Shown: piece after piece, positions 4,275 through 64,000 of the stretch
Layout: the number at the start of each line of letters is the position of its first letter
How positions within the stretch are numbered: position 1 is the stretch's first letter
NCBI RefSeq assembly: GCF_006716185.1
Contig: NZ_VFOP01000001.1
Span: forward strand, 3,782,001-3,846,000
DNA: 64,000 bases
Reading direction: 5' to 3'
Source: Ornithinicoccus hortensis
Lineage (GTDB): Bacteria; Actinomycetota; Actinomycetes; Actinomycetales; Dermatophilaceae
Translations under genes and position numbers: made by a program
Notes under the pieces: generated by a model
What the model was told of the DNA's origin: nothing
The model's input: only the letters and a program-made list of their open reading frames with translations
The model's database searches: none

Positions 4275-5090
4275 TCACCCGGATATCGGAGCGCTGCCCG
4301 CAGCCCAGCGCCGACCGGGCACGTCCAGCCACCAGTCAAAGAGGTCGATGGCCGGCGTCCCGAGGATCACCTCAACGGGCTCGGTCAGGTGCGCCGTCGC
4401 GGCGCGCAGGTCGGTGAAGGCGATCCGGTGCGGGGCCAGCAGCAGGTCGTCCGCGAGGCGGCCCTCGACGATCGTCGCCGTCGGTGTCTGCACGGTCGTT
4501 CCCGTCGCGTCCGTCCCCGGCGCGCTGCCGTGGTCGGTGAACAGTTGCGGCACCCGGTCCGCCAGCGCGGTGTCGACCACGGTGATGCCTGCCCCGGTGT
4601 CCAGGACCGCGTTCACGCTGAGGCCGGGCCACGAGACCGGGATGCGGAGGTGGCCGGTGTCGTCGAGCGGGAGGCGGTGCGTCGGGCCGGGCGGGTCGTC
4701 CCCGCAGACCAGCACGCCCTCGCGCGGCCGGAAGGTGAACGGCTCCCTGCCCAGCACGTCCAGACCGAGCAACGCCCGGGCCCCGGGTTGCTCCGGGGGC
4801 ACCAGCTCGACCTCCAGGTCGGACACGCGCACCCCGCCGAACTCGAGGCCACCCAGCCGGGCACTCCGGGACCGGCCGCTGCCGAGCACGCCGCGCGACT
4901 CGGCATACCCTCCCCCGTCCCCACTCGAGGATCGGTCCACCAGCTGGGTGCGCGGACTGCCGGTGTCCAAGCACATCGTCTCTTCCCACCACGGGCCCTC
5001 CCGGGACTGCGCGATGGCGACCCGCACGGACCACGTCCAGCTCAGGGGGTCCTCCTCGTCGGGGACCCTGGCCACCAGAACGACGCTCAT
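4275..5090 (-). CDS. Aspartyl-protease-like protein with two DTG motifs
   Basis: A 271-residue protein with two retropepsin-type catalytic motifs on one chain: CLDTGSPRTQL near residue 40 and AVLDTGAGITVVD near residue 165, each followed by hydrophobic-hydrophobic-Gly segments (LLGLDVLG and VILGTPAIDLF). Bacterial retropepsin-like proteins usually carry one motif and dimerise; this one looks internally duplicated, as in eukaryotic pepsins. No signal peptide or membrane segment is seen, so it is probably cytoplasmic. It is likely leaderless (TACCCT 6 nt before the ATG). The function is not known; proteolysis is inferred from the motifs. Confidence 0.7.
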   Translation of the reverse strand: MSVVLVARVPDEEDPLSWTWSVRVAIAQSREGPWWEETMCLDTGSPRTQLVDRSSSGDGGGYAESRGVLGSGRSRSARLGGLEFGGVRVSDLEVELVPPEQPGARALLGLDVLGREPFTFRPREGVLVCGDDPPGPTHRLPLDDTGHLRIPVSWPGLSVNAVLDTGAGITVVDTALADRVPQLFTDHGSAPGTDATGTTVQTPTATIVEGRLADDLLLAPHRIAFTDLRAATAHLTEPVEVILGTPAIDLFDWWLDVPGRRWAAGSAPISG

Positions 5091-5114: not shown

Positions 5115-5897
5115 ATGGGGATCGTGGTGGAGGCCGGGGACGGAGTAGGCGCGGCGGCGCACGGGCGCAGCGACCCTCCCCCGCGCGAACCACGGTCGGA
5201 GTACCCCACCCTGCCGGCCGGGCAGGACGCCGGCGGGACCCGGCCGAGGTGGGAGCCGGGGACGGTGATCTTCTGGGTGGCCGCACCCGACTTCGGCCAG
5301 CCCATGCGGGTGGTGCGTGACGACGACAGGGGGCTGGTGGCCTGGCTGCCCGCCGGCTCCGACTGCCTCGCGGCGCGCCTGCCCGGTGGCCGCGAACTGC
5401 GCGAGGTCGCGACGGCCGACCGGTTGGACCTGCCGAGGACGCCGACCCGGGTGACCTGGCGCGGGCCGGGCATCCTGCGGGTCGCACCCGCCGGCGCGAC
5501 CCGGTCCTACTGGTACTTCCGGGAGGAGGACGGGAGCCCGCGGGGCACCTACGTCAACATCGAGCTCCCGCACCGCCGCGGCCGGTCCAGCACGGTGACC
5601 CGTGACCTCGTCCTCGACCTGCTGGTCGCGCCGGACGGCAGCAGGGAGTGGAAGGACCGGGACGAGCTCGAGGAGTTCTGCAGCCTCGGGATGCTCTCGA
5701 CCGGGCTCCGCGACTGGATCCTGCGTCAGGGCGCCCTGGCCGCCGAGGCCGTGGAGCAGCGGGCCTGGCCGCTGGACGAGGCCTGGTCCGGATGGACCCC
5801 ACCGGACGGCTGGGACGACCCGCTGCCGCTGCCCGGGTGGGTCCGTTACGAGGCCGACGAGGTGGGCACCGACCGCCGCAACAGGGCGGGCAGGTAG
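5115..5897 (+). CDS. DUF402 (FomD-like) protein
   Basis: A 260-residue protein with a DUF402 domain in its C-terminal two thirds. The family pattern is visible: YWYFREEDGSPRGTYVNIELP, then a conserved LVLDLLVAPDGS and a DRDELEEF acidic cluster that binds divalent metal in FomD and related nucleoside-diphosphate phosphatases. It probably hydrolyses a phosphate ester or anhydride. The first 55 residues are low-complexity, and the ATG at 5115 or GTG codons just after it could be the start. The 3' end overlaps the convergent soxR gene by about 50 bp, and that overlap holds one copy of a 29-bp repeat found again at 8849. Confidence 0.75.
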   Translation: MGIVVEAGDGVGAAAHGRSDPPPREPRSEYPTLPAGQDAGGTRPRWEPGTVIFWVAAPDFGQPMRVVRDDDRGLVAWLPAGSDCLAARLPGGRELREVATADRLDLPRTPTRVTWRGPGILRVAPAGATRSYWYFREEDGSPRGTYVNIELPHRRGRSSTVTRDLVLDLLVAPDGSREWKDRDELEEFCSLGMLSTGLRDWILRQGALAAEAVEQRAWPLDEAWSGWTPPDGWDDPLPLPGWVRYEADEVGTDRRNRAGR

Positions 5898-6460: not shown

Positions 6461-7156
6461 ATGCCCATCGCACTCATCACCGGCGGGTCCGCCGGCCTCG
6501 GCCTGGCCCTCACCCGGTCGCTCACCACCGACGGCTGGACGGTCGTCACCGACGCCCGCGACGCTGGCCGCCTGAGCGCGGCCATCACGGACTTCGCGGA
6601 CCGGGTCCACGCGGTCCCCGGTGACGTCACCGACCCGGCGCACCGGCGCGCCCTGGTGGCCGAGGTCAACCGGTTGGGCCGGCTCGACCTGTTGGTACAC
6701 AACGCCAGCACCCTCGGCCCGGTCCCCCTGCGACCGCTGGCGGAACTGGAGGCCGATCAGCTGCGCTCGGTGTGGACCACCAACGTCGACGCGCCGCTCG
6801 AGCTGACCCGCGCCCTCCTGCCCCGTCTCCTCGAGGACGACGGGGTGCTCCTGGCCATATCGTCCGACGCGGCCGTGGCGCACTACGAGGGCTGGGGACC
6901 GTACGGCGCGTCCAAGGCGGCGCTGGACCACCTCACCCTGACGGTGGCCGAGGAAACTGGCGTGACGGCATACGCCGTCGACCCCGGCGACATGCGCACC
7001 CAGATGCACCAGGACGCCTTCCTCGGCGAGGACATCTCCGACCGGCCACTGCCCGCGACCGTGGTGCCGCACATGCGGGCGTTGCTCGACGCCCGCCCCC
7101 CGTCCGGTCGCTACCGGGCCGCCGACCTCGACGTGCCCGTGGCGAAGGGAGCCTGA
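6461..7156 (+). CDS. Short-chain dehydrogenase/reductase (SDR)
   Basis: A 231-residue classical SDR that uses NAD(P)H to reduce or oxidise a small carbonyl or alcohol. The cofactor motif TGGSAGLG is at residues 7-14, NAS at about 82-84 in place of NNAG, and the catalytic YGASK (Tyr and Lys) near residue 147, preceded by the SSDAA serine. The ATG at 6461 follows GAAGGAG. It is divergent from soxR and probably SoxR-activated, fitting a role in handling redox-active quinones or electrophiles. Its TGA is one base from the QueA-like start, so both are co-transcribed. Confidence 0.88.
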   Translation: MPIALITGGSAGLGLALTRSLTTDGWTVVTDARDAGRLSAAITDFADRVHAVPGDVTDPAHRRALVAEVNRLGRLDLLVHNASTLGPVPLRPLAELEADQLRSVWTTNVDAPLELTRALLPRLLEDDGVLLAISSDAAVAHYEGWGPYGASKAALDHLTLTVAEETGVTAYAVDPGDMRTQMHQDAFLGEDISDRPLPATVVPHMRALLDARPPSGRYRAADLDVPVAKGA

Positions 7157-61148: not shown

Positions 61149-62366
61149 TCAGTGCGGATCGGCCCGCAGCGGCAGGGTCGCCGCCAACCGCCACCCACCC
61201 TCGCCGGTGGGGCCGGCGTCGAGTTCGCCGCCGAGCAACTGCACGCGCTCGCGCAGCCCGATGACGCCGAACCGGGAGACCGCGAAGCGGCGGGGCGGTT
61301 GCCGCTGTTGCTCCTGCCCCAGGGCGTTGACCACGTCCGCCCGGACAACCCCCTCCTCGACGTCGACCGCGACCTCGAACCGGACGGCGGCGCTGGGGGT
61401 CGAGTGCTTCAGGATGTTCGTGGTGCCCTCCCGAAGCAACCGCGACATGGTGGTCCGCACCCCGAACGGCACCTTGGACAGGTCCCCGGAGACGGCCGTG
61501 GTGACCGGGTGACCCAAATCCTCCAGGGACGCGGCGAGGTCGGCCAGTTCCGACCCCAGGTCGATGCTCGCCGCGGAGCTCGAGACCTCGTCGGTCGACG
61601 GGGGCTCGCGCATCAACCGCAGCAGCCGGCGCAGATCACCCAGCGCGGCCCGGGCCGAGTCGCCGATCACCTCGAAGGTCTCCCGCTCCGCACCGCCCTC
61701 GGGTGCCTGCATGGCACCGGCGCTGGACTGCATCGCGATGACGGTCAGGTCGTGGGCGACGATGTCGTGCAGTTCACGGGCCAGTTCGTCACGCTGCAAC
61801 TGGATCAGGTCCCCGGCGCGCCGGTCGAACTCCTCGATCTGCCGCCGGTCCTCGGCGCGGGTCGCCAGCAGGTAGCGCAGCGAGAGGCCGATGACCAGGG
61901 CCAGCACGAGCATCGCCAGGTAGCCGGAGACGAACGCCGAGGAGCTCAGCGCATGGTCCAGGAACGGGTTGACGATGGTCCACGCCACGGTGGTCACCAG
62001 GGCGATGACGAGCCCATGCCGCACCGCGGCGAAGGCCAGGAACCCGACGACGATGAGGATCTCGAGGGCAAAGGTCCCCGGCTGTGTCTGGGTGGCCACG
62101 AGCAACGCCTGCAGCAGCACCAACGGGACCCACGCCCACCCCGGTCGGAGCGCCACGACCAGCCACATCAGCACGTCTACCACGCACAGCGTCAGCTCCA
62201 GGGCCAGCGGGCCGAAACCATCGGGCCCGGAGTCCAGGACCCGCCATGCGGTGACCGTGTTGCCGACGAGGGCCACCGAGATGATGACGACCCGCAATAC
62301 CAACGGCAACTGCCCCCCGGACCAGAATCCGGGGGGCAGGCGAGAACCGTTCTTCAGCAGACCCAC
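61149..62366 (-). CDS. Sensor histidine kinase (HisKA_3 type)
   Basis: A 405-residue membrane kinase: four to five N-terminal helices (residues 20-160), coiled coil, HisKA_3 box RDELARELHDIVAHDLTVIAMQ (phospho-His near 205) and a HATPase_c domain ending FGVIGLRERVQLLGGELDAGP. GTG start at 62366 overlaps the end of the small secreted peptide gene by 13 bp, indicating coupled expression. Probable partner is the divergent response regulator at 62786. Confidence 0.9.
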   Translation of the reverse strand: MGLLKNGSRLPPGFWSGGQLPLVLRVVIISVALVGNTVTAWRVLDSGPDGFGPLALELTLCVVDVLMWLVVALRPGWAWVPLVLLQALLVATQTQPGTFALEILIVVGFLAFAAVRHGLVIALVTTVAWTIVNPFLDHALSSSAFVSGYLAMLVLALVIGLSLRYLLATRAEDRRQIEEFDRRAGDLIQLQRDELARELHDIVAHDLTVIAMQSSAGAMQAPEGGAERETFEVIGDSARAALGDLRRLLRLMREPPSTDEVSSSAASIDLGSELADLAASLEDLGHPVTTAVSGDLSKVPFGVRTTMSRLLREGTTNILKHSTPSAAVRFEVAVDVEEGVVRADVVNALGQEQQRQPPRRFAVSRFGVIGLRERVQLLGGELDAGPTGEGGWRLAATLPLRADPH

Positions 62367-62554
62367 GGGACGAGGCTACAGAGGTCAGGCATCCGGAACT
62401 GCGGGTCCACCTCCCCGTCGGTCAGCGTGGCAACGGTGGGAGCGAGCTCGCTCCCCGGGCCGGCGGCCTGGGCCGGGACGACCCCCACTGCCAAGGCGAT
62501 CGCGGCGACGGCTGCGGTGAGAATGATCCGGGGAGAGCTGGTGGTGGCGCGCAT
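62354..62554 (-). CDS. Small secreted peptide with C-terminal two-cysteine loop
   Basis: A 66-residue precursor: signal peptide (IILTAAVAAIALAVGVV, cleavage after PAQA, about residue 30), then a 36-residue mature part ending CSLVPWVC. The two cysteines could close a six-residue loop. It lies directly before and overlaps the histidine-kinase gene, the arrangement expected of a self-sensed peptide signal. ATG at 62554 with AGGGAA upstream. No known family. A pheromone role is inference. Confidence 0.65.
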   Translation of the reverse strand: MRATTSSPRIILTAAVAAIALAVGVVPAQAAGPGSELAPTVATLTDGEVDPQFRMPDLCSLVPWVC

Positions 62555-63535: not shown

Positions 63536-63709
63536 TCAGCGTCGTTCGAGGCGATCTATCCGCTGCTCCAGCGAGATCACCCGGGCCCGCAGGTCGGGGT
63601 CGATGTGGTCGGCGGTGTCCCGGCTGCTGATGAGGCGCACGACCTGGACCAGGCCGCCCATCGCGATCGCCAGGAGCACGATCCAGGCGTACCAGGGGAT
63701 GGCGTCCAC
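63536..63709 (-). CDS. PspB-like small membrane protein
   Basis: A 57-residue protein: N-terminal membrane helix (YAWIVLLAIAMGGLVQVV), then a charged helix ending RVISLEQRIDRLERR, a coiled-coil. Size and layout resemble PspB of the phage-shock response. GTG at 63709 follows GGAGAG. No neighbour supports a Psp operon, so the resemblance may be architectural only. Confidence 0.6.
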   Translation of the reverse strand: MDAIPWYAWIVLLAIAMGGLVQVVRLISSRDTADHIDPDLRARVISLEQRIDRLERR

Positions 63710-63930
63710 GGTCTCTCCTCTCGTTCGTCGGCGCGGGTGCGTCCGACCATCCCATTGAGCCATTCCACCGGGAGCCGGGGGTACCGACAAAAGTCGCTAT
63801 CTCCGTGCGACCAAGGTGTCCGCCAGGTCGCGACCAGCGACGGATTCCAGGGGTTCCCCCAGGTCAGCAGAGTTGAGGCAGCCGGCAACCGTCGGTCTGT
63901 TTCAACTCAGGGCACACGAAGGAGAACACC

Positions 63931-64000
63931 ATGGAGAACAACAGCATCGAGCTGCCGGACCTGGACTTCGACGGGATCGAGGTGATGTCGGTCCGCGAGG
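63931..64000 (+). CDS. Probable thiopeptide (thiazolyl peptide) precursor, leader only, cut by right edge
   Basis: Twenty-three codons are visible, from ATG 63931 after GAAGGAGA. The encoded leader has the acidic pattern LPDLDFDGIEVMSVRE, which follows, from memory, the lactazole/berninamycin-type leader pattern D-L-D-x-x-x-I/L-x-V-x-S-V/L-R-D/E that precedes the core. The Ser/Cys-rich core itself lies beyond the window. The 220-bp gap before it (63710-63930) carries an AGTTGA...TCAACT repeat and little else. If right, a YcaO/dehydratase/pyridine-synthase cluster should follow. Confidence 0.6.
   Translation, partial: MENNSIELPDLDFDGIEVMSVRE

Follow-up and report, generated by a model that had tools for sequence, protein, structure and literature searches.

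Evidence for a lactazole-like thiopeptide gene cluster encoding an unusually long core peptide

Introduction

Lactazole-like clusters account for 251 of 508 annotated thiopeptide clusters, and by the account of the lactazole paper laz was the sole one characterised by 2020, its function being unknown (PMC7210931). In the pathway described there, LazDE cyclise Cys and Ser residues, the dehydrogenase part of LazF oxidises the azolines, LazB and the elimination part of LazF make dehydroalanine (Dha), and LazC builds the pyridine, with the leader leaving as an amide; the paper calls the fused elimination/dehydrogenase unusual and describes lactazole A itself as lacking antibacterial activity (PMC7210931). 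A 2014 review gives 12-17 residues for published thiopeptide cores and ties ring size to target (PMC3917276). The natural rings reported in the papers cited here have 14 or 17 members in pyritides, 26, 29 or 35 in others and 32 in lactazole (PMC9247985, PMC3917276, PMC7210931), while on engineered substrates the Laz and Mro enzymes yield 62- and 68-membered rings (PMC7210931, PMC9247985). The pyritides of Micromonospora rosaria, as described in PMC9247985, share with the locus reported here a split LanB (MroB, MroC) and a [4+2] pyridine synthase (MroD); they arise from two precursors, and differ in a core without Cys, the lack of azole-forming genes and their small rings.

Here we describe a locus that begins in the last bases of the window, by which we mean the whole 64,000-nucleotide stretch analysed (G000:C1:3782001-3846000), in a genome that is a single contig of 3.94 Mb. 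Genes past the window's edge lie in 20 kb extracted across it (L002) and are given in continued window numbering (L002 position plus 63000). We are confident that the locus is a thiopeptide biosynthetic cluster of the lactazole-like kind, its core being unusually long; this confidence extends to the thiopeptide cluster and not to its ring.

Results and discussion

The earlier note, made from the window alone, had described a start with a fine ribosome binding site and a 23-residue N-terminus, and had proposed that the window ends within a RiPP precursor followed by a biosynthetic cluster. GAAGGAGAACACC indeed precedes the start as a good ribosome binding site, and the frame runs on past the edge as a 57 aa peptide that passes the cut-offs of NF033400 (67.1 bits, cut-off 30), TIGR03892 (33.6 bits, cut-off 25) and PF19409 (54.2 bits, cut-off 23.5), all three scores being far above chance level. 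Taken alone, the 23 in-window residues (13.8 bits, E 0.042 against NF033400) are suggestive, not decisive, of a thiopeptide leader. The complete peptide has the form of a short thiopeptide precursor, a leader followed by a Ser/Cys/Thr-rich C-terminal core in the same frame, and its C-terminal part reads ...VREAVAVPETGAT-SGSSSCSSTSCCGSSSCCSSGSCG. From this we infer cleavage after residue 33, leaving residues 1-33 as the leader and residues 34-57, SGSSSCSSTSCCGSSSCCSSGSCG, as a 24-residue core. Upstream of the start, an inverted repeat, GAGTTGA...TCAACTC, is visible by eye at window positions 63870-63908 and is a possible operator.

The enzyme genes that the note had predicted, for a YcaO cyclodehydratase, a split LanB dehydratase and a pyridine synthase, were found in the 20 kb extension, and the precursor frame did not continue as a globular protein (Table 1). 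The cluster genes read as open frames, and the stretch from the precursor gene up to and including the LazF-like fusion measures 12.4 kb.

Table 1. Features of the locus inside the window and beyond its edge
Feature	Position	Strand	Matches and remarks
Sensor histidine kinase, 405 aa	61149..62366	-	PF07730 55.7 bits
66 aa peptide, signal-like N-terminus by eye	62354..62554	-	no family; ends DPQFRMPDLCSLVPWVC
LuxR/NarL-type response regulator, 226 aa	62786..63466	+	PF00072 97.8 bits, PF00196 71.3 bits
Small membrane protein, 57 aa, GTG start by eye	63536..63709	-	resembles, by eye, the protein at the same G029 place
Thiopeptide precursor gene, part in window	63931..64000	+	first 70 bases, 23 residues; translates MENNSIELPDLDFDGIEVMSVRE
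Full precursor gene, 57 aa	63931-64104 (L002:931-1104)	+	in-frame stop ends at 64104
ABC ATPase	64206-65117	+	PF00005 92.1 bits
ABC-2 permease	65119-65985	+	PF01061 61.5 bits
LanB N-terminal glutamylation protein, LazB-like	65985-68582	+	PF04738 92.2 bits
Pyridine-synthase homologue, LazC-like, TbtD-like	68579-69766	+	NF045556 127.3 bits (below cut-off 325); TbtD 5wa3
LazD-like protein, 557 aa	69759-71432	+	no family; hhalign to LazD-position protein
YcaO, LazE-like	71429-73252	+	PF02624 230.7 bits; TIGR03604 237.9 bits (above cut-off 219.25)
Extra SagB-like protein, 435 aa, GTG start chosen	73204-74511	+	no family; hhalign
LazF-like fusion, LanB C-terminal domain and SagB-type dehydrogenase	74508-76286	+	PF14028 149.3 bits, TIGR03891 105.4 bits, PF00881 28.9 bits, TIGR03605 63.9 bits (below cut-off 78.4)
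Hydrophobic peptide, 64 aa	76403-76597	+	
M20 peptidase	76594-77877	+	PF01546 66.6 bits

The split of LanB is plain from the family matches, with the glutamylation domain (PF04738) and the elimination domain (PF14028/TIGR03891) on different genes, the latter in a bifunctional LazF-like fusion with an azoline dehydrogenase. The YcaO protein is accompanied by its partner, which was recognised by profile comparison alone: the 557 aa protein aligns with the one that occupies the LazD position in a lactazole-like cluster of Streptomyces (hhalign 93.3%, E 2.6e-7), a comparison that rests on L030, since the L014 and L031 rows of the set are long stop-to-stop frames and probably misframed. Similarly, between the 435 aa protein and the SagB domain of a LazF-like set hhalign gave 93.4% (E 2.5e-7), whereas three control pairs stayed at 0.0-0.1%. 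Against Pfam and NCBIfam the 435 aa protein had no match, and its Clavibacter homologue reaches only 13.3 bits (E 0.093) with PF00881. Solved-structure searches with the LanB, SagB-like and LazD-like proteins gave no meaningful match. By homology to TbtD/PbtD, the remaining enzyme is a putative [4+2] pyridine synthase: it aligns to solved TbtD (5wa3) at E 1.8e-10, and by profile at E 1.5e-17 over nearly the full length. It is a homologue outside the TbtD/PbtD equivalog defined by NF045556.

By tblastn (E<=1e-3), the SagB-like gene is present in the window genome, G029, Clavibacter, L056, L057, L059, L015 and L017, and was not found in L014, L030, L031, L033, L034, L060 or L061; the L012 and L058 sequences end ahead of its place. 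It thus accompanies the long core, with G018 (L014) and L060 as exceptions, and could serve as an additional dehydrogenase or a subunit.

Compared with the lactazole A cluster of Streptomyces lactacystinaeus, the locus has the same enzyme set including the fused elimination/dehydrogenase, a core residue 2 that is no azole precursor (Trp in lactazole, Gly here) and an S-S-S-C motif in the core; it differs in a core of 24 rather than 14 residues and in a high rather than low Cys/Ser/Thr content (PMC7210931). Of the lactazole and berninamycin types that the earlier note named for the leader, lactazole agrees with the gene content and with core residue 2, which is not Cys; the core departs from it in length and in the possible position of the ring. 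Also additional to lactazole are the extra SagB-like protein, the ABC-2 transporter pair and the two-component system; no transporter pair is annotated near the L030 cluster, for which the annotation table is incomplete. The D-L-D...L-x-V-x-S leader block and an LPE-x-GAS end recur in two lactazole-like loci, L030 and L026. Their core, SWGSCSCQGSSSCA, we take to be lactazole-like.

Apart from the inserted SagB-like gene, the biosynthetic genes are arranged as in a lactazole-like cluster on a Streptomyces plasmid. Because the same parts are present in that order, we propose a lactazole pathway, each step by analogy to lactazole. The LazD-like protein would bind the leader block LDFDGIEVMSVRE, and the YcaO protein would turn core Cys and selected Ser/Thr residues into azolines; oxidation of these to azoles would fall to the SagB domain of the LazF-like fusion, perhaps aided by the extra SagB-like protein. 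Remaining Ser residues would be glutamylated by the LanB protein and converted to dehydroalanines by the LazF-like elimination domain. The pyridine synthase would then build the pyridine from Dha1 and a Dha far along the core, with loss of the leader, and the ABC transporter would export the product. Trimming and immunity are guesses at what the M20 peptidase and the 64 aa hydrophobic peptide might do; neither had a match in the sequence covered of the g404 loci, and the L012 contig ends ahead of the YcaO gene. Downstream of the M20 gene lies a Rce1-like (CPBP) protein (PF02517, 64.6 bits) with no match in the relatives' loci, followed by a frame whose translation looks like a subtilase with cell-wall-binding repeats; we take both to be outside the cluster.

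The core SGSSSCSSTSCCGSSSCCSSGSCG recurs with at most two changes in 11 precursors from 7 genomes: the window's own, the uncultured Arthrobacter contig NZ_CANLXP010000027.1 (L012), G029, and a tandem pair in each of four genomes of the actinomycete genus g404 (L056-L059, 6.1-7.4 Mb). Their consensus is SGSSSC[S/T]STSCCGSSSCCS[S/G]GSCG. The L012 core is identical to that of the window, the g404 cores carry one or two changes, and the enzymes are homologous. The g404 clusters differ in having two tandem precursors, at 5302-5484 and 5783-5959 in L056 and likewise in L057, L058 and L059, whose cores differ at residue 20 alone (S/G). An annotated relative, the cluster on plasmid pCL-A6099 of Clavibacter sp. 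A6099 (NZ_CP083440.1), has the same gene order including the ABC pair and the SagB-like protein, and its precursor, with core SGSSSSNSSSCCGSSSCCSSS, is annotated as a thiazolylpeptide-type bacteriocin; it differs in being plasmid-borne, in a core three residues shorter, in a TetR regulator downstream and in a pyridine synthase 40% identical to that of the present locus. Further core variants are SGSSSCHSTSCCGTCSCSSCCT in G018 and SGSSSCGGCSTCGSSSCCGGTEIE in one of three L060 precursors.

All 18 changes that separate window and L012 across the 37 codons of leader end and core are synonymous (plain counts). The other nine full-core comparisons gave 1-2 non-synonymous against 9-15 synonymous changes, and the Clavibacter comparison 4 against 13 over 34 codons. 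Near-identity of the core across three genera, against drift at synonymous positions, argues for a single compound that selection maintains. The far half of the core seems to be under selection as well, because all 5 changes between window and L012 in the codons of residues 13-24 are synonymous; these counts suggest that the far end is retained in the product or required for its making.

The cluster is accessory, since of 31 genomes of the genus three have the pyridine synthase (the window's own, G000, besides G029 at 64% identity and G018 at 30%), as do 6 of 186 family genomes; that of L012 is 58% identical. A class-level LanB search (E<=1e-20) returned 15 of 394 genomes, the window's own included. 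Five belong to g404, of which G1218, G1163 and G963 (44%) and G1257 (36-48%, in two pieces) carry the two tandem precursors and G1014 (29%) a different precursor. An order-level search with a pyridine-synthase alignment gave 5 of 396 genomes, all weak or partial except the window's own. Of 396 genomes searched at phylum level with a precursor profile, 3 matched: the window's own, one that is lactazole-like, and one in which the match was weak, partial and interrupted by a stop; this profile missed the g404 precursors, which the class-level LanB search alone found. Searching genome contigs with the single pyridine-synthase protein gave 14 pattern matches and one locus (L012), viral contigs searched with the alignment gave 48 pattern matches and 0 confirmed, and plasmid records held the pyridine synthase in four cases and the precursor in one. 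Precursor scans relied on ad hoc composition filters, and one of these scans yielded no precursor at 3 of its 10 loci (L062-L064).

Where the macrocycle closes is the interesting part of the locus. Inserting ten residues into lactazole gave a 62-membered ring (PMC7210931), that is, three atoms per residue, so that closure at Ser10 would give a 26-membered and closure at Ser16 a 44-membered ring. We lean, at slightly better than even chances, towards Ser16. In the six distinct cores that begin with SGSSS (the g46, lactazole-like and two other L060 precursors being excluded), columns 1-5, 10, 12, 13, 16 and 17 are invariant, among them G13, S16 and C17, and GSSSCC is kept in five of the six. The S-S-S-C at 14-17 corresponds to S10-S11-S12-C13 of lactazole, where, according to PMC7210931, no Ser of S10-S12 can be replaced by Ala and Cys13 is needed for efficient maturation. 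Against Ser16, the G018 core has GTCSCS in place of GSSSCC, yet it keeps S16-C17.

Closure at Ser10 in the same cluster, giving a classical 26-membered macrocycle with an exceptional 14-residue tail rich in azoles and Dha, has perhaps one chance in three. Ser10, too, is invariant in 6/6 cores, it is flanked by azole-capable residues in all six (T/S/C before, C/T after), and S8-T9-S10-C11 also resembles the lactazole S-S-S-C motif. Moreover, 26 is a known natural ring size and 44 is absent from the sizes that the review gives (PMC3917276), and the Laz enzymes accept tail extensions of up to 15 residues in vitro (PMC7210931). Against Ser10, residue 11 is Thr in L060, whereas the GSSSCC block at 13-18 is the part retained in most cores. 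The purely synonymous drift of residues 13-24 also speaks for the far end, with the reservation that a functional tail would be conserved too. Ser16 remains our preferred site, tentatively.

Other sites were set aside. The Ser1-Ser12 closure that makes the 32-membered ring of lactazole A is impossible because residue 12 of SGSSSCSSTSCCGSSSCCSSGSCG is Cys. Ser22 is ruled out by the Clavibacter, G018 and L060 cores, which lack it; Ser5 would require an 11-membered ring, which MroD does not form according to PMC9247985. Thr33 was set aside as a ring-forming residue on general chemical grounds alone.

Very unlikely is a linear, goadsporin-like azole/dehydroalanine peptide, in which the pyridine-synthase homologue would be inactive or a second elimination domain. 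The core has the composition of linear azole peptides, the homologue scores below the NF045556 cut-off, and goadsporin clusters also have a split LanB (PMC4603692), but the homologue aligns to TbtD over nearly its full length, it is present in 9/9 related loci with SGSSS cores by tblastn (L012, L013, L014, L029, L056-L060), and goadsporin-type clusters as described in PMC4603692 lack a [4+2] enzyme. That the cluster is decayed or silent we hold to be just as improbable: two candidate self-resistance routes are absent, with no TSNR_N-type methylase gene in the genome and no EF-Tu duplication found (1/6 EF-Tu-family matches above the cut-off), but the genes are open frames, core change between genera is almost purely synonymous, and the locus has both an ABC transporter and a regulator linked to the cluster. 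With neither resistance route found, we infer no target. Nor is the label antibiotic implied, since lactazole A has no antibacterial activity and no product has been seen here.

Our literature search found no product of SGSSSCSSTSCCGSSSCCSSGSCG, with most subscription journals outside its coverage, and a search with core fragments returned unrelated papers only. Surveys may well list the core, because public family models cover the precursor and the Clavibacter copy is annotated. What sets this lactazole-like cluster apart is its unusually long and strongly conserved core. As the peptide exceeds most published thiopeptides and recurs near-identical in other genera, the cluster probably makes a compound not yet characterised, with a ring or tail out of the ordinary; the product itself, its activity and its ring are all predicted from the genes. 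Either ring answer would extend known thiopeptide architecture, providing a natural case beside the engineered 62- and 68-membered rings.

A two-component system lies upstream of the precursor (Table 1). Within the genus, just 2 of 31 genomes have both kinase and regulator at E<=1e-60: that of the window and G029, whose orthologues are 53% and 73% identical, respectively, and arranged alike; the kinase occurs in 2 of 184 family genomes (E<=1e-40). G000 and G029 are also the genus members with the 24-residue core, and G018, with its variant core, is without the pair. The histidine kinase is therefore likely a regulator of the cluster. Near the clusters of L012, L035, L056, L057 and L058 no kinase match was found, and near those of L059 and L060 only distant kinases (about 30%); because the pair is not beside the cluster outside the genus, a general link between the two is weakened. 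The 66 aa frame overlaps the kinase start by 13 nt, and its G029 counterpart is a 32 aa frame ending DPMFRVPGVCNIFPWFC, with 9/17 residues identical and no evident signal sequence. Part of this likeness may be due to the kinase, since the end of the small frame runs into the kinase start in a different reading frame. From these two sequences, our guess is that the small Cys-ending peptide is a candidate pheromone or signal controlling the thiopeptide.

The boldest combination of these ideas, which we rate a long shot, would be a near-invariant 24-residue thiopeptide, found in several actinomycete genera, that forms a 44-membered macrocycle by closing at Ser16 and so exceeds the natural ring sizes in the cited papers, its dense azole pattern requiring the second SagB-like protein, and its production in the genus switched on by the small Cys-ending peptide as sensed by the linked histidine kinase.

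Several relatives showed further features. Three g46 genomes have a related precursor with core SGSIGTSSSSSSTCSAC, on the minus strand at L015 9040-9198, L016 8886-9044 and L017 8935-9093, with the SagB-like gene in the two loci searched for it by tblastn, L015 and L017. One in-frame TGA was counted in the pyridine-synthase matches of G156 and G160. L060 holds three different thiopeptide-like precursors, at 4381-4566 (-), 6592-6753 (+) and 6911-7087 (+), together with two pyridine-synthase matches and two YcaO matches. At L033 12684-12872 (+) and L061 5301-5486 (-), long Ser/Cys/Thr-rich precursors lie beside LanB-like genes and two YcaO matches, a gene content that recalls the coryneazolisins as described in PMC4603692.
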